From assembly GCF_003207895.1 (NCBI RefSeq), contig NZ_NKUB01000016.1, positions 1-62,558 of the forward strand: DNA of 62,558 bases, given 5' to 3'. The notes under the pieces were generated by a model, which made no database searches, was not told the DNA's origin, and saw only the letters and a program-made list of their open reading frames with translations. The translations under genes and the position numbers were made by a program. The stretch is from Komagataeibacter swingsii (GTDB lineage Bacteria; Pseudomonadota; Alphaproteobacteria; Acetobacterales; Acetobacteraceae). Positions 8,586 to 52,546 of this stretch are shown piece after piece. Numbering within the stretch: position 1 is the first letter of the stretch; each line of letters starts with the position of its first letter.

Positions 8586-9764
8586 ATGTCGTCTGTGACG
8601 GAAACTTCGGGAACGGAACGAAATTATCTGCACCAGCTGACATCCCTGCGTGGCGTTGCATGCCTTGTCGTACTGTTCGGTCATGCCATACAGGTTTTCC
8701 GTTACCAGAACCCGCAACGCACGGGAGTACAGGCCGCGATGCATGACATCGTGACCTACGCATTCAATGCGGAAGCGGCTGTGGTGCTGTTTTTTGTGCT
8801 CAGCGGGTGCGTCCTGTCGCTGTCACTGCGCAAATATACGCATCTGACGGGCCGGATCGTCGGCAGCTTTTACGTCAAGCGCGTGTTCAGGATCTATCCA
8901 CTGCTGTGGTTTTCCATCGGGCTGGCCATCGCCAGCATGGTTGTCGCGCGTGAATGGGTCGGCGACGGCGTATTTGTCGGCTGGCTGTCGCGTAATCTGC
9001 TAACGCCAGTGTCCATCCGCAACACCATCATGTCGGTTGCGGGCGTTTTTACCCGCTACAATGGGCCGATGTGGTCGCTGCGGGTGGAACTCATGTATTC
9101 CGTGGCCTTTCCGTTCCTGTTCTGGCTGGTGCGCGCGCCACGGCTGCGGGTGGTTACACTGGCCGGCCTTGCGGCCATCGCCCTGCTGCCCCTGCCGCAT
9201 GAGGTTGGCACGGTCTTTGCCCTGTCCTTTGGGGCCGGCGCCCTGATCCCGCTGCTGCCGACAACGCTTTCCCCGCGCCACGGGGCTTATGCGCTGCTGG
9301 CGCTGGTTGTGCTGCTGTATGACCGCTACGGCCTGATGGCGATGGGGCTGAACCTGCCCGAACGCATTCCCGACATGATTGAAACGGTCGCGGCTTTCGT
9401 GCTGATCCGTGACCTGTATGCATCGGGGCGGCAGTACCGCCTGCTGCTCAGCAGGCCGGTCATCGCCATTGGCGAACTGTCCTATGGCATCTACCTGCTG
9501 CACCTGCCCATCATGCTGATGGTGTTCAGCATCATGGGGCATGTCATGGGGGCGCCCGCCCTCCTTTCGCATCCGTCACTGACCCAGGCGGGGCTGGGGG
9601 GCGCGACCGTCGTACTGACCACGGCGCTCGCGGCCATAACGTACAATATACTGGAACTGCCCCTGCATAACCTCGGCCGGCGGCTGGGCAATGCGCTGCT
9701 TGCGCAGCCCGCCCGTCCGGTATCCCCACCACAGGGTGCGGATACGCATGCCTCACACATCTGA
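8586..9764 (+). CDS. Acyltransferase family 3 membrane protein
   Basis: This 392-residue polytopic membrane protein has the acyltransferase-3 signature QLTSLRGVACLVVLFGHAIQVF near residue 20 and about ten hydrophobic segments. The ELSYGIYLLHLPIML block near residue 300 is also typical. Such proteins O-acetylate sugars of surface polysaccharides using cytoplasmic acyl-CoA. The start at 8586 is set by GGAGGA 7 nt upstream. The position in the EPS locus suggests it decorates the repeat unit, as acetyl groups do in acetan and xanthan. Confidence 0.85.
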   Translation: MSSVTETSGTERNYLHQLTSLRGVACLVVLFGHAIQVFRYQNPQRTGVQAAMHDIVTYAFNAEAAVVLFFVLSGCVLSLSLRKYTHLTGRIVGSFYVKRVFRIYPLLWFSIGLAIASMVVAREWVGDGVFVGWLSRNLLTPVSIRNTIMSVAGVFTRYNGPMWSLRVELMYSVAFPFLFWLVRAPRLRVVTLAGLAAIALLPLPHEVGTVFALSFGAGALIPLLPTTLSPRHGAYALLALVVLLYDRYGLMAMGLNLPERIPDMIETVAAFVLIRDLYASGRQYRLLLSRPVIAIGELSYGIYLLHLPIMLMVFSIMGHVMGAPALLSHPSLTQAGLGGATVVLTTALAAITYNILELPLHNLGRRLGNALLAQPARPVSPPQGADTHASHI

Positions 9765-47088: not shown

Positions 47089-48018
47089 ATGAAGAATACC
47101 GGCCTTTCGGCGGGCATGATGCTGGCGTTTGCGGCATACGCCTCGTTTTCGATCAGTGATGCCTATTCCAAGCTGCTGGCGGGCCGGATCGACCCGTTTG
47201 AAGTGGCGTTTTCCGGCGGTGTCTTCGGCCTGCTGCTCATTCCCTTCATCCGGGGAAAAAACGAATCCTACCGTGACCTGTTCGTGGTCCGGCAGCCGGT
47301 CATGTGGCTGGTGCGGGCGGCCGCCACCTTTGCCGCCACGGCGGCCAGTGTTGAAGCCTTCATGCTCCTGCCCATGCCGGAGGCGTTCTCCCTTATTTTC
47401 CTCATGCCGCTTTTCGTGACCATCCTCTCGGTCGTGCTGCTGCGCGAGAAGGTTTCCACGCTGGGCTGGCTGTCGGTCATCGTGGGCTTTATCGGCGTGC
47501 TGATCGTGCTGCGGCCGGGGCTGCGCGCGCTCCATTTCGGGCATCTGTGCGCGCTGATCTCGGCGGTCGCGAATGCCGTGGGCGTCATCGCCTACCGGAT
47601 GTCGGGCCGTAACACGCCGCGCCTGTCCATGTTCAGTTCCAGCCTGTGCGGTCCGCTGCTGGGCAATGGCGCCCTGATGGTGGCCCATGCAAGCTGGCCG
47701 CAGGGCGCCACGGTATGGATGTTCCTGTTCGGCTATGGCTTCCTTGCCGCACTCGGGCAACTGCTCATGATGATGGCCGCCACCCGGGCGACCGCCAGCG
47801 CAATCGCCCTGCCGCAATACAGCCAGATGCTTTGGGCCGTGGCCTTCAGTTTCTATGTCTTCCATGAACCGCTGGATAGCTGGACCTTTGTGGGCATCGC
47901 CGTCATCGTCGCATCCGGCGTTTACAAATGGGCCTATCCGCGCGTGACTGCCAGACTGGCGACCATAAGGCGGCAAAGGATCATTCAGCCCCCATGTGGC
48001 CCCTACCCGCTGACCTGA
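47089..48018 (+). CDS. EamA/DMT-family transporter
   Basis: This 309-residue protein has ten membrane segments in two EamA repeats; FAAYASFSISDAYSKLLAGRIDPFEVAF opens the first, and LCALISAVANAVGVIAYRMSG opens the second. Such proteins move metabolites or drugs, mostly outward. It is on the same strand as the polyol regulator but is separated by a repeat copy and about 275 bp, so it may be its own unit. The substrate is unknown. Confidence 0.85.
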   Translation: MKNTGLSAGMMLAFAAYASFSISDAYSKLLAGRIDPFEVAFSGGVFGLLLIPFIRGKNESYRDLFVVRQPVMWLVRAAATFAATAASVEAFMLLPMPEAFSLIFLMPLFVTILSVVLLREKVSTLGWLSVIVGFIGVLIVLRPGLRALHFGHLCALISAVANAVGVIAYRMSGRNTPRLSMFSSSLCGPLLGNGALMVAHASWPQGATVWMFLFGYGFLAALGQLLMMMAATRATASAIALPQYSQMLWAVAFSFYVFHEPLDSWTFVGIAVIVASGVYKWAYPRVTARLATIRRQRIIQPPCGPYPLT

Positions 48019-48136: not shown

Positions 48137-48514
48137 CTAGGGTGGCGCATCAAGCATGTCGCCGCGCCGCTGGTCGGTGGCAAGGACATCACCAATCTCG
48201 GTCGCCGCCTGTACCAGCAGTGCCTGCACCCCCCGCAATCGCACGCCTGGGACCAACTGGTCGCGCTCCGCCAGCCGCAGAACCGTCGCGATCACCGCTT
48301 CCGACTGCCGCGCCAGCAAAATAAGGTGCCAGCCTCCCGGGCCATGCGTGCCGTTCAGCCAGTTCTTGGCGCTCCTTTCACTTGCGCCCGTCCATCCCAT
48401 CACCGTTTTGATCGCCCTGTGGCTTGATCCCAGTTCGCCGCGCAAGGCCATCCCGATCTCTTGCGCGAATCTGTCTGGCGGTTTTCGGCGAATGTTGCCC
48501 GCTTTAGGTAACAT
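48137..48514 (-). CDS. Small HTH-like protein of the recombinase module
   Basis: This 125-residue basic protein has a central helix-rich block (HRAIKTVMGWTGASERSAKNWLNGTHGPGGWHLILLARQ) that looks like a DNA-binding helix-turn-helix. I recall similar short proteins in alphaproteobacteria, near recombinase genes, without a known role. It is divergent from the serine recombinase, 70 bp apart, which is the position expected for its repressor or directionality factor. That role is inference. Confidence 0.6.
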   Translation of the reverse strand: MLPKAGNIRRKPPDRFAQEIGMALRGELGSSHRAIKTVMGWTGASERSAKNWLNGTHGPGGWHLILLARQSEAVIATVLRLAERDQLVPGVRLRGVQALLVQAATEIGDVLATDQRRGDMLDAPP

Positions 48515-48584
48515 GTTGCCCCTCCATTCGGCTTAGGGTGTTGCAGCAATAGAAAACCGCAGCCCCATATGTTCGGAAGTCCAG

Positions 48585-50147
48585 ATGGTTATTGATTGGA
48601 ACCAGCGTGAGACAAATAACGACCGGCGGCTTCGGGCCGCAGAATATGTCCGTATGTCCACCGACCATCAGGAGTTCTCGACCCGTAATCAATCGGCGGC
48701 GATCCGGGCCTATGCCGGCAGGCGCGGCTACGAGATTGTCCATACTTACGCCGATGAAGGCAAAAGCGGCCTTAACGTCGATGGGCGGGACGCGTTCATC
48801 AGGCTGATTGATGATGTGGAAAGCGGTCGCGCGGACTTCAGCGCCATCTTTGTTTACGACATCAGCCGCTGGGGCCGTTTTCAGGACCCGGACGAGGCAG
48901 CCATGTACGAACTGCGCTGCCGCCGCGCCGGTGTGGACGTCTGTTATTGCGCGGATCAGTTCGAGAACGACGGCAGCATCGGCTCATCCATCGTCAAGAC
49001 CGTCAAGCGGGTCCTGGCTGGCGCCCATAGCCACGACCTGTCGGTCAGGGTGTTTGCGGGCCAGGCCAACCTGATTCGGCGCGGCTACCGCCAGGGCGGC
49101 GCACCCGGCTTTGGCCTGCGCCGGATGCTGATCAACCAGAATGGCGAAAGAAAGGGGTCTCTGGGGCGCGGCGAACATAAGAGTATCGCCACCGATCGTG
49201 TCATCCTGGTTCCCGGCCCGGAGGACGAGATCTCGATTGTCCAGGAAATTTACCGGATGTTCGTTGAGGATGGGCGATCTGAACGCGATATCGCCGCGAC
49301 CCTGAACACCCGCGCCATCCTGACCGACCTTGGTCGTCCCTGGACACGGGGCACGGTCCACCAGATCCTCATCAACGAGAAATATATCGGCCATAACGTC
49401 TGGGCGCGGACCTCATTCAGGCTCAGGCGCGCGCATATCCGCAACGATCCCGAAAAATGGGTGCGCATCAACGATGCGTTCGCTCCGATTGTCGATCGGA
49501 ATATTTTCCTTCGTGCGCGTGCCATGATCGATGCCCGTTCGGAAAGGCTGAGCGATGAAGCCATGCTCGACGTGCTCAGGCTGATCCTTGAGGGACATGG
49601 TCAGCTATCCGCCATCATCATCGACGAAGCCGAGGGATGCCCGTCGAGCGGCGCCTACCGTTCACGTTTCCGCAGCCTGCTGCGCGCCTACGCGCTGGTC
49701 GGCTTTTCACCTGATCGCGATTATCGCTACCTTGAAATCAACCGGAAACTGCGGGCGCTCCATCCAGCCGTGATCGCCGGAATCACCGCCGGTATCGGGG
49801 CAGCCGGTGGGCGTGTCATCAGCGACCCGTTGACCGACCTGCTGACCGTCAACGCCGAATTCACCGTCTCGGTCGCGATCATGCGTTCGTTCCTTACCCC
49901 GGCCGGAACGCTGCGCTGGAAGCTGCGCCTCGACACGGCGCTCAACCCCGATCTTACCATCGCCGTGCGCATGGACGAACACAACGACCGGACGAAGGAT
50001 TTCTACCTGCTGCCACGCCTGGACATAAGGGAGGCCGTCCTGCGACTGTGTGAACATAACGGGCTGTCGCTTGATGCCTATCGCTTCGACACGCTTGACC
50101 GCTTTTACCGGATGGCCGCACGCGCCGCCGTGCCAAGGGCCGCCTGA
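48585..50147 (+). CDS. Large serine recombinase
   Basis: This 520-residue protein has an N-terminal resolvase catalytic domain, with nucleophile serine in AAEYVRMSTDHQEFSTRNQ (about residue 25) and FVYDISRWGRFQD supplying the arginines. A recombinase domain follows (GGAPGFGLRRMLI, IVQEIYRMFVEDGRSERDIAATLNTRAI, TRGTVHQILINEKYIG). The last 200 residues do not show the usual zinc ribbon and coiled coil of phage integrases. Its stop overlaps the start of a ParB-like gene (TGATG at 50145-50149). Integration, excision or inversion of this module is its likely job. Confidence 0.88.
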   Translation: MVIDWNQRETNNDRRLRAAEYVRMSTDHQEFSTRNQSAAIRAYAGRRGYEIVHTYADEGKSGLNVDGRDAFIRLIDDVESGRADFSAIFVYDISRWGRFQDPDEAAMYELRCRRAGVDVCYCADQFENDGSIGSSIVKTVKRVLAGAHSHDLSVRVFAGQANLIRRGYRQGGAPGFGLRRMLINQNGERKGSLGRGEHKSIATDRVILVPGPEDEISIVQEIYRMFVEDGRSERDIAATLNTRAILTDLGRPWTRGTVHQILINEKYIGHNVWARTSFRLRRAHIRNDPEKWVRINDAFAPIVDRNIFLRARAMIDARSERLSDEAMLDVLRLILEGHGQLSAIIIDEAEGCPSSGAYRSRFRSLLRAYALVGFSPDRDYRYLEINRKLRALHPAVIAGITAGIGAAGGRVISDPLTDLLTVNAEFTVSVAIMRSFLTPAGTLRWKLRLDTALNPDLTIAVRMDEHNDRTKDFYLLPRLDIREAVLRLCEHNGLSLDAYRFDTLDRFYRMAARAAVPRAA

Positions 50148-51034
50148 TGTCCGCCCGTCCCGCCCAGCGTGTGGAGATGGTGCCGGTGGAACGGATTACC
50201 GTCCTCAATCCCCGCATTCGCAATCCCCGGATGTTCAGGGAGATTGTTGACAGTATCGCAAGGATCGGCCTCAAGCGACCGATTACCGTTACCCGCAGGG
50301 CCGGGGCTGACGGCCCCTTTTATGATCTTGTATGTGGACAGGGTCGGCTCGAGGCATTCCTTGAACTTGGTGAGACGGAAATACCGGCACTGGTCGTCAA
50401 TGCCGACATGGAGGATTGCCTTGTCGCCAGCCTGGTCGAAAATTGCGCGCGTCGGCATCATCGCTCACTGGACCTGCTGCAGAACATCGGCGGCATGAGG
50501 CAACGTGGCCATACGGTAGCAGACATTGCCCGACAGACTGGGCTTTCAGGCGAGTTCGTCGGCTGTGTGCTGCGTCTGCTGGAAAAAGGTGAGCAGCGCC
50601 TGCTACAGTCTGTTGAAACCGGACAGATGCCGATTTCGGTGGCGATCGAAATTGCGGATGCCGACGAACCCGGCATCCAGCTCGCCCTGCAGCATGCCTA
50701 CGAAAACAACCTGCTGCGCGGGCGTAAACTGCTGGCGGCCAAGCGTCTTGTCGAACAGCGCAAGCGACGGGGCAAGCATGTGCGCAGGCGGACGGATGGC
50801 GGGACGATATCGTCCGCATCCCTTCTGAACGCCTATCAGGAGGAAACCGATCGCAAACGGCTTCTGGTACGCCGCGCCGAAGTCGCCAGAAATCGCCTGA
50901 CCTTCATAACCGAAGCCTTGGGCAAATTGTTTACCGACCGCGCCATGACGGAAATCCTTGAAAGCGAGAAACTGCACGATATGCCAGAAGAACTTCGTGA
51001 TCGTCTTGGCAATACAGGGGCGCGCATGCCATGA
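50147..51034 (+). CDS. ParB-like protein 1 of the recombinase module
   Basis: This 295-residue protein has a ParB/Srx-like N-domain (VPVERITVLNPRIRNPRMFREIVDSIARIGLKRPITVT) with the CTP-site region altered to CGQGRLEAFLELG. ENCARRHHRSLDLLQ forms the next box, and a central HTH (TVADIARQTGLSGEFVGCVLRLL) follows. It resembles RepB-type partition proteins. It overlaps both neighbours by start/stop codons (50147 and 51031), so the three genes are translated as a unit. No ParA ATPase is present, so it may act as a DNA-binding switch rather than in classic partition. Confidence 0.8.
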   Translation: MSARPAQRVEMVPVERITVLNPRIRNPRMFREIVDSIARIGLKRPITVTRRAGADGPFYDLVCGQGRLEAFLELGETEIPALVVNADMEDCLVASLVENCARRHHRSLDLLQNIGGMRQRGHTVADIARQTGLSGEFVGCVLRLLEKGEQRLLQSVETGQMPISVAIEIADADEPGIQLALQHAYENNLLRGRKLLAAKRLVEQRKRRGKHVRRRTDGGTISSASLLNAYQEETDRKRLLVRRAEVARNRLTFITEALGKLFTDRAMTEILESEKLHDMPEELRDRLGNTGARMP

Positions 51035-51918
51035 CCGCCGCGCGATCCACGGTTCGCATGGCCTTCGAGCAGGCCAGCATTCGCATCCCGATCGCCGAGA
51101 TCGGCCTGTTGCGCGACGTGCCCCCGGCCATTCGCAGGACCATAAAATATGGGCAGATCGCGGCTTCGATCACCGAGGTTGGCCTGATCGAGCCTCCGGT
51201 CGTGGCGCGCGATGGCAGAAATCCCAACCACTACCATCTGCTCGATGGTTATCTGCGCATTGACATCCTCAAGGCGCAAGGCGAACACGAGGTGGTGTGC
51301 CTGGTAGCCCTTGATGATGAAGGCTTCACGTACAACAGGCGGATCAGCCGCCTTGCAACAATTCAGGAACACAGGATGATTCTGAATGCGGTCAGGAAAG
51401 GCGTATCAGAAGAACGACTGGCCCGCGCCCTCAACGTCAATATCGACAACATCCGACACAAACGGACGCTTACCGAAGGGATCTGTCCCGAGGCGATTGA
51501 CCTGCTCAAGGATCGGCATGTCCCGATCGCCACATTCGCGGAATTGAAGCGGTTGAAACCGGTTCGACAGATCGAGGCGGCCATGGCCATGAATTCCATG
51601 AACAAATACAGTGTTTCCTACGCAAAATCGATCGTGACCGCAACGCGGGAGGATTTTCTGGTGGCACCACGCCGCAGGCCTGCCCGCGGCCTGACTGAAG
51701 ACCAGATCACCACGATGGAACGTGAATCGGCCACGCTTGATCGGGAGTTCAGGATTATCGAAAGGGATTATGGTCGGGATCATCTTGTCCTGACACTGGC
51801 CATCGGTTATGTGCGCGCCTTGTTGGATAACGTACGGGTTGTCCGCCATCTTGCCCAATATCATCCCATGATCCTTGCTGAATTCCAGAAAATCGTGGAA
51901 TTTCAGCCAACGGCATGA
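51031..51918 (+). CDS. ParB-like protein 2 of the recombinase module
   Basis: This 295-residue RepB-like protein differs from its neighbour. Its N-domain has VAR-DGRNPNHYHLLDGYLRIDILKAQGEHEVVCLV, followed by TYNRRISRLATIQEHRMILNAVRKGVSEERLARALNVN (an HTH) and GICPEAIDLLKDRHVPIATFAELKRLKPVRQIEAA. The CTP-box position reads DGYLRIDIL. This form matches chromosomal or plasmid RepB C-terminal-domain proteins. It is the last gene of the three-gene overlapping set and has the same length as ParB-like 1. Confidence 0.8.
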   Translation: MTAARSTVRMAFEQASIRIPIAEIGLLRDVPPAIRRTIKYGQIAASITEVGLIEPPVVARDGRNPNHYHLLDGYLRIDILKAQGEHEVVCLVALDDEGFTYNRRISRLATIQEHRMILNAVRKGVSEERLARALNVNIDNIRHKRTLTEGICPEAIDLLKDRHVPIATFAELKRLKPVRQIEAAMAMNSMNKYSVSYAKSIVTATREDFLVAPRRRPARGLTEDQITTMERESATLDREFRIIERDYGRDHLVLTLAIGYVRALLDNVRVVRHLAQYHPMILAEFQKIVEFQPTA

Positions 51919-52079
51919 TCGTCGCACCAAAGCCTAACCACGGTAACAGCGATCCAGCCGCACGTACTGCTGTTTTCCGGACCGAAGCGATGCAGAAATC
52001 ATCAGCAGTCGATCTCAGATCCTCATTCCGACACCCAATATACTACCCATCCCGTTGCCATCACCATTCAGGATGCAAC
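51919..52079. other. Gap between module and IS remnant
   Basis: About 160 bp with no gene or clear direct repeat. I looked for a copy of sequence near 48019-48137 that could be the paired attachment site and saw none. Confidence 0.35.
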
Positions 52080-52376
52080 GAACAAAAGAGCGTTGCACTG
52101 GCTTATGTCGACCAGGGTTATACAGGCGGAAAGCCGGCCGAGGCAGCACGGGCACAGGGGCCGCCCTTGAAATCGTCAGGGTTGCCCGAGGCCAGACGTG
52201 GCTTCGTCCTGCTGCCGCGCCGATGGGTTGGCGAATGCTCTTTCGCATGAGCCACATGTTGCCGCAGGCTCGCCAAGGATTACGGGCGTTACGCTTCAAC
52301 ACTCGCAAATCTCCATGTCATCGCGTTCACATGCTTCATGTTCAGAAACGCCGCTATACTTGCCCAAATTGCATAA
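52080..52376 (+). pseudogene. IS5-family transposase C-terminal remnant
   Basis: The frame reads EQKSVALAYVDQGYTGGKPAE, LPEARRGFVLLPRRWVGE and, past an in-frame TGA at 52248-52250, RRLAKDYGRYASTLANLHVIAF to TAA 52374-52376. These are the last blocks of an IS5-type DDE transposase. The TGA replaces an expected Trp, and the N-terminal two thirds are missing. It directly follows the recombinase module. Confidence 0.8.
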
Positions 52377-52546
52377 TACCCTCCAGTAATGTAGCAATTT
52401 GTGAATGGTCCTTTAATCGCTGGAGCAGGTTGTTATGTCCCTTCCATTGATAACCATATGATCAGCACGGACTGAATTTATAAAGAAATGTGGTTGACCA
52501 AACGTTTAATCAATCGTGAAATTTTTATATTATAAACCATAAAATA

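Follow-up and report, generated by a model that had tools for sequence, protein, structure and literature searches.

Three overlapping genes in a stretch of 62,558 nucleotides from Komagataeibacter swingsii (contig NZ_NKUB01000016.1; this whole stretch is called the window) encode a large serine recombinase and two different ParB-like proteins, termed ParB1 and ParB2. All three genes, in this order and on one strand, were found in 30 of 37 related places. We read this unit, with a probability of about 0.45, as a compact, autonomous mobile site-specific recombination module which settles in defence hot spots. The reading is based on the co-inheritance of the genes, intact serine-recombinase residues, the lack of ParA beside the unit, sharp edges and the occurrence in many unrelated contexts. 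In addition, a conserved structured RNA was found behind the second ParB gene (pb2) of many relatives.

Conservation of the gene trio and its proteins

One scan of public genomes and one of 150 family members, 10 of which matched (own genome included), yielded 38 related places, 37 of which were examined. Four of the 30 ordered trios are affected in the recombinase gene: a contig start truncates it in L012 and L018, and it is split in L026 and L113. The other seven places were cut by the contig start (L007, L011, L017), carried a deletion (L010) or were without recombinase (L009, L016, L030). The original prediction was supported in part by these data, namely as to a conserved, self-contained module without ParA, and with the recombinase lost in only 3 of the 37 places the ParB genes do not usually occur without it. 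Nor do all relatives reside on plasmids with parA, as chromosomes and viral contigs were found as carriers besides plasmids, some of them conjugative. All three proteins were present at good length in 48 of 58 entries examined. The trio stood in order in 9 of 9 annotated plasmid loci first read; these loci were chosen from matches to ParB1, and most listings had already named the recombinase. One phage record (unverified) contained the trio as well. ParB2 was detected in 28 of 398 genomes of the phylum sample, own genome included, while the unit was absent from two other genomes of the window's genus within the family search. A second, shorter serine-recombinase match was observed upstream of the main recombinase in L020, L021, L022, L027, L154 and L155.

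The recombinase carries a Resolvase catalytic domain with the Ser nucleophile and Arg residues of large serine recombinases and matches the Recombinase domain PF07508 (E 2.1e-23, Pfam). Residues Y21, R23, S25, Q29, R95 and R98, which we take to be catalytic, were invariant in 19 of 19 sequences, and the profile matched chains of the TP901-1 integrase, the SPbeta integrase (YokA) and TnpX. For ParB1 the GxGR and VENxARR boxes were invariant in 22 sequences and the ENxxR box (box III) was kept. For ParB2 the TYN and TIQEHRMI stretches were invariant in 24 sequences and the Glu of the ENxxR box was replaced; the names and roles of these boxes are used here as we assume them for ParB proteins. By profile comparison both proteins are related to Noc, and ParB1 also to Spo0J and ParB. 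A fold search of the AlphaFold models returned both as ParB/Noc/KorB-like, with matches over the N-terminal fold and the helix-turn-helix (HTH) region (mean predicted local distance difference test, pLDDT, 76-77; predicted template modelling score, pTM, 0.38-0.45). The original prediction had proposed to inspect the CTP-binding residues in structure models; box III proved to be kept in ParB1 and altered in ParB2, where its Glu is replaced.

A structured RNA at the 3' side of the second ParB gene

A conserved, structured noncoding RNA of at least 130 nt follows pb2 in 15 of the 37 places, including a partial copy in L020, and in 2 of the 9 plasmid loci. Compared with its close relative L021, this L020 copy (8882-8985, Defluviicoccus) is short of about 98 nt of RNA sequence through a loss. 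The alignment of 33 copies (MAFFT) contained 35 pairs with 94.6% of cells paired, and 20 pairs with changes on both sides. The number of both-side-change cells was 103 compared to 32.5 in shuffles, 0 of 500 shuffles reached any of five measures, and slid controls for this alignment paired in 32-45% of cells. We are aware that the structure was derived from 16 of the 33 sequences tested and that the last hairpin, added by hand from the alignment, pairs in 82% of cells, compared to 94-100% for the other helices. A single copy folds no better than shuffles (z -1.04), so the case for the RNA rests on covariation. Copies from another order, described below, showed covariation of their own (n=15, one beside a module; 93.8% paired; 0 of 500 shuffles reaching any of five measures). 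Over both alignments the slid controls paired in 32-48% of cells, with structures taken from the same or overlapping sequences. Two scans against Rfam 15 (7 and 10 loci) gave no match at the gathering score. Beyond the RNA model, further hairpin-like stretches were read by eye in many copies.

In the search of 385 alphaproteobacterial genomes few candidates per genome were scored, so that the counts are lower bounds; the RNA was detected in at least 15 of these genomes with at least 18 matches. Seventeen of these 18 adjoin a second-ParB gene or its remnant, and the remaining one was the weakest match (E 2.6e-4). In the wider stretches of the 17, all three genes were found in 12 (L152 fetched as its own contig) and only part of the second ParB gene in the other five (L156, L157, L161, L162, L163), one of them at a contig start. 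L156, L157, L161 and L163 showed the RNA beside a partial pb2 with no recombinase or first ParB gene in the stretch fetched, and may be either remnants or diverged versions of the unit. Among viral contigs, a pattern scan returned 36 with the RNA, all confirmed by the model; 28 had a second-ParB match just upstream, and 17 of these had the complete trio. The remaining eight comprise three contigs that begin no more than about 120 nt from the core and five with 0.4-6.7 kb of upstream DNA without a second ParB.

Phylum-wide, the RNA was found in 18 of 398 genomes with 27 matches. Four of the 18 newly returned loci carried the module, three of them belonging to the class of the window and one to another. 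In the other 14 no module was seen within 1.5 kb, among them L218, a weak match from the window's class. The module was absent (E<=1e-3) from all 13 wider RNA loci, where 4-10 kb of upstream DNA were available in 12 and 0.7 kb in one; all 13 belong to one order of another class. In this order 20 of 48 genomes carry the RNA family, with up to five matches each, and a model built from its copies finds the alphaproteobacterial RNAs. In Alphaproteobacteria the RNA thus accompanies the module, but its copies without the module in another order show it to be older or more widely spread.

Reading the open reading frames (ORFs) around L207-L220 and L221-L233, nearly all from the other order, the RNA was often located at the 3' end of prophage tail-like clusters, in convergent orientation. 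Its neighbours by the same reading were variable, some of them defence-like, and included UvrD-like helicase plus OLD-like ATPase genes (L221), an HsdM-like gene (L214, L224) and a reverse transcriptase gene (L219). Two copies on one strand of one contig, as in an array, were observed in L228 (451-605 and 6540-6694, 6 kb apart) and L221 (2787-2939 and 3251-3406, 0.3 kb apart).

When presence of the RNA was mapped on a tree of 55 second-ParB proteins, eight changes were required, and the RNA appeared in several of the main branches; its share is inflated, as part of the sample had been selected by the RNA. The copies of the window, of genome G025 and of the Sphingomonas type form one RNA-less clade of ten. 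These observations fit an ancestral RNA that was lost several times, and repeated gain may be an alternative history. Because of its position and its spread over the tree, the 3' RNA is probably an ancestral part of the unit's right end which was lost in the lineage of the window. In the window itself, model R1 with filters off gave at best 8.8 bits between 46000 and 54500, and model R2 gave no match. The best match in the window's own genome (21.4 bits, E 0.037) was rejected. When the RNA-less clades were searched for a conserved downstream noncoding piece, one was shared only between near-identical relatives, and upstream matches were mostly due to the small divergent gene.

Proposed mobility of the unit and competing explanations

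Comparing pairs of closely related loci, sharp edges became visible in differing contexts, with homology largely confined to the unit. L023 and L024 have 3.5 kb in common at 91%, ending at the pb2 stop codon. L120 and L128 share 4.2 kb at 92.7%, plus a separate 2.1-kb stretch further on. Two copies within one genome (G265) match at 84% over 4.0 kb only, within 12-14 kb compared. Two pAt plasmids harbour units that are almost the same (96.9%) but inserted at different places, and imperfect direct repeats of about 26 bp enclose each of them. These repeats resemble a tRNA T-arm; at the matching junction of a related plasmid that lacks the unit, one copy is present. Sphingobium plasmids occur with and without a 5.6-kb insert carrying the unit (two without were read). 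For the window, the closest relative was G025, which has the unit in common at 80.6%; the homology ends at 51919 on the right and at about 48162 on the left, the latter with the G025 contig ends joined. Because of the sharp edges in different contexts, mobility of the unit is supported, not proven, by these sequence comparisons. As to the mobility and unit ends suggested by the original prediction, the edges were thus seen, an excised circle or a clean empty site was not.

Several findings weigh against autonomous mobility. Among the loci compared, neither an excised circle nor a clean empty site was found. Direct repeats at the ends reached the 95% background in only 5 of 21 loci (L121, L170, L123, L120, L128), two of which (L121, L170) exceeded the 99% value of 12.5, and the direct repeat of L121 is plasmid backbone. 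Inverted repeats rose above background only in L003 and L121, with L122 at the 95% line. The feature at the edge varies, being the pb2 stop codon in some copies and the end of the RNA in others. Finally, the unit occurs with annotated Tni-type genes in L173-L175 and with tni-like genes, by reading, in L006; therefore other elements may move it. On the Agrobacterium plasmids L173, L174 and L175 the unit adjoins a Mu-type transposase gene together with tniQ and tniB. DUF1403 lies upstream, and L173 and L174 also carry a gene annotated as ScpB. A right edge at 9402 in L006, L007, L009 and L029 was rejected as unit end and tentatively taken as the end of a Tni-like transposon, given the tni-like genes of L006. 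The T-arm-like target is exact at the pAt units and was kept for this group only. As a general target it was rejected, with 11 near-end matches in 38 loci (0.48 versus 0.22 per kb), and a search of 54 loci with ARAGORN gave two tRNA genes, both away from the unit ends.

If the unit is a mobile recombination module, the serine recombinase would bring it to accessory hot spots on plasmids and in prophages and transposons. The two Noc/ParB-like proteins would load on DNA near the unit ends and, as a pair, decide timing and direction of recombination. ParB1 with its near-complete nucleotide-binding box may be assisted by ParB2, with its altered box, as a partner. ParB-like proteins as recombination directionality factors offer a lead here, which the literature searched neither confirmed nor excluded. 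The RNA may serve, e.g., as a regulator, a co-factor or a folded recombination site.

The main rival, next after the mobile recombination module, is a defence system against phages or plasmids, a possibility that we consider somewhat unlikely. The ParB proteins would recognise foreign or replicating DNA, the recombinase would cut or rearrange it, and the RNA would be part of an effector complex. The neighbourhood agrees with this idea. The 136 neighbouring proteins of 31 loci matched 313 PADLOC families (E<=1e-8) and 116 control proteins matched 0. This figure counts families, not proteins matched, and the controls stem from chromosomal DNA of one genus plus the window, which leaves island or plasmid location uncorrected; some of the difference may therefore be due to location in islands as such. 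Judged by product names, 6 of the 9 annotated plasmid loci have defence or toxin-antitoxin genes close to the unit, and L121, L124 and L125 less clearly so. They comprise type I restriction-modification, phosphorothioation-type genes, AbiEii, Fic, RES-Xre, ParDE, CcdB and a restriction endonuclease. The unit also travels like defence systems do, carrying no cargo and occurring in viral contigs and alongside Tni genes. However, the PADLOC models gave no convincing match for the unit's own four proteins (best E 0.0021), and mobility is the simpler role for an intact serine recombinase. A Resolvase domain was found in 7 of the 136 neighbours.

We regard it as unlikely that the RNA takes part in the reaction itself, with a recombinase steered by an RNA-ParB complex or recombining at a folded 3' nucleic-acid site. 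Points in favour are that the RNA gene, where present, forms the right end of the unit, and that module-less RNAs end prophage-like clusters beside genes as varied as, by reading, the helicase/ATPase pair and the HsdM-like gene. A further point is the comparison of L152 and L153, which are identical over the first 4371 columns of their common block; the 24 differences are all confined to the part that begins near the middle of the RNA, as if an exchange point lay inside the RNA gene, although one pair is not enough to establish a mechanism. The idea of guide-like matches between the RNA and its flanks found no support: the longest common words had 9-15 nt in 31 loci (no formal control), and the 15-nt one is plasmid sequence.

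A maintenance module, in which the recombinase would resolve multimers or cointegrates at a site bound by the ParB pair, using the ParA of the host or none, appears decidedly unlikely. It would account for the ParB/Noc/KorB-like profiles and folds, for the presence in conjugative plasmids and for the position beside tniQ/tniB and the Mu-type transposase gene. Nevertheless, many copies are chromosomal, no ParA-like family occurred among the Pfam families matched by at least two of the 136 neighbours, and transfer between unrelated replicons was sharp. Finally, a decayed piece of a larger integrative element, with integrase and accessory genes persisting together by chance, could explain the broken copies (L009, L010, L016, L026, L030), the four RNA copies beside a pb2 remnant and the window copy with its IS-like segment and without RNA or end repeats, but it is very improbable given the high conservation of all three proteins, their good length in most entries and the same compact limits in distant families.

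The window copy, related systems and significance

The gene layout given by the original prediction was confirmed with respect to ORF coordinates, both overlaps, the two differing 295-aa ParB proteins and the small ORF diverging at 70 bp (Table 1). The recombinase and ParB1 genes overlap in TGATG at 50145-50149, and the ParB1 and ParB2 genes in ATGA at 51031-51034. The expression "translationally fused" does not apply; three separate proteins are encoded, and "coupled by overlap" describes them better. The small divergent protein had been called HTH-like, which was not substantiated: Pfam and NCBIfam returned no match above cut-off, and the sole family was a PHROG of unassigned function (4.8e-5). 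Its gene is kept in 17 of the 37 related places (E<=1e-4) and likely encodes a regulator.

Table 1. Features of the unit and its right flank in the window (aa, amino acids; IS, insertion sequence).
Feature	Position	Strand	Description
Recombinase gene	48585-50147	+	520 aa ORF; large serine recombinase; Resolvase and Recombinase domains (Pfam)
ParB-like gene 1	50147-51034	+	295 aa ORF; ParB_N and RepB (PF07506, 4.6e-12)
ParB-like gene 2 (pb2)	51031-51918	+	295 aa ORF; RepB (PF07506, 1.3e-36)
Small divergent gene	48137-48514	-	125 aa ORF; unit member in many relatives
Divergent intergenic region, small gene/recombinase	48515-48584	.	70 bp
Right edge	51919-52054	.	homology to closest relative ends at 51919; RNA of relatives absent here
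Multi-copy segment of the genus	52055-52393	.	probable IS remnant adjoining the unit, outside it

The left neighbour of the unit is an EamA transporter gene of the drug/metabolite transporter (DMT) type (47089-48018). Scanning 10 flanking proteins of the window, nine matched metabolic, transport or regulatory families and one had no match; ParA, replication or repA/repC families were not among them, in agreement with the original prediction of no ParA and no replication gene. The prediction had further placed the unit between a DMT gene and an IS5 scrap. The DMT side stood. On the right, a segment present in several copies in many genomes of the genus was found, which is consistent with an IS remnant. 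Among 18 other genomes of the genus, the EamA gene matched at 86-90% in 12 and at only 76-79% in the remaining six. In none of seven relatives fetched is the EamA gene followed by window DNA from the right of 48018, so that the genus gave no clean empty site and the 3' side of this gene looks like a rearrangement point. At the ends of the window copy neither direct nor inverted repeats above background nor attL/attR-like sites were found.

Comparing the unit with known systems, it shares the catalytic domain, the invariant residues and the Recombinase domain with large serine recombinases (TP901-1, SPbeta, TnpX, and Ccr of the staphylococcal cassette chromosome, SCC). Its closeness to defence genes resembles that of SCC. 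In contrast to these recombinases, it has two overlapping ParB-like genes, no cargo and, in many relatives, the 3' RNA, and its NCBIfam CcrB match was far under the cut-off (65.9 of 900 bits). By profile and fold matches, both ParB proteins resemble the ParB/Noc/KorB family in the N-terminal fold and HTH region, and ParB1 keeps its box III. They differ from that family by the missing ParA neighbour, the tandem of two unlike copies, the C-terminal PF07506 and the loss of the ENxxR Glu in ParB2. PF07506 is shared with RepB of repABC plasmids, whereas the window has a recombinase instead of a repA/repC neighbour. Bridge-RNA IS110 and omega-RNA IS elements are comparable as small mobile units with a structured RNA at an end. 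Unlike these, the unit has a serine recombinase, not DEDD or Y1, and its RNA/flank words reach only the length given above. In the titles and abstract openings of the literature searched, nothing was recognised on the recombinase-ParB-ParB unit or its RNA.

The window copy is the plain, RNA-less form of the unit, and the interest comes mainly from its relatives, with the RNA as the most unexpected part. With its strong covariation and its own life outside the module, the RNA is a concrete, testable object. Pseudomonadota carry the gene set widely, and its products may be misread in function because of automatically assigned names, e.g., "plasmid partitioning protein RepB C-terminal domain-containing protein". 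If it is true that ParB-like clamps control the recombinase, the idea of the CTP clamp would extend from segregation to site-specific recombination.

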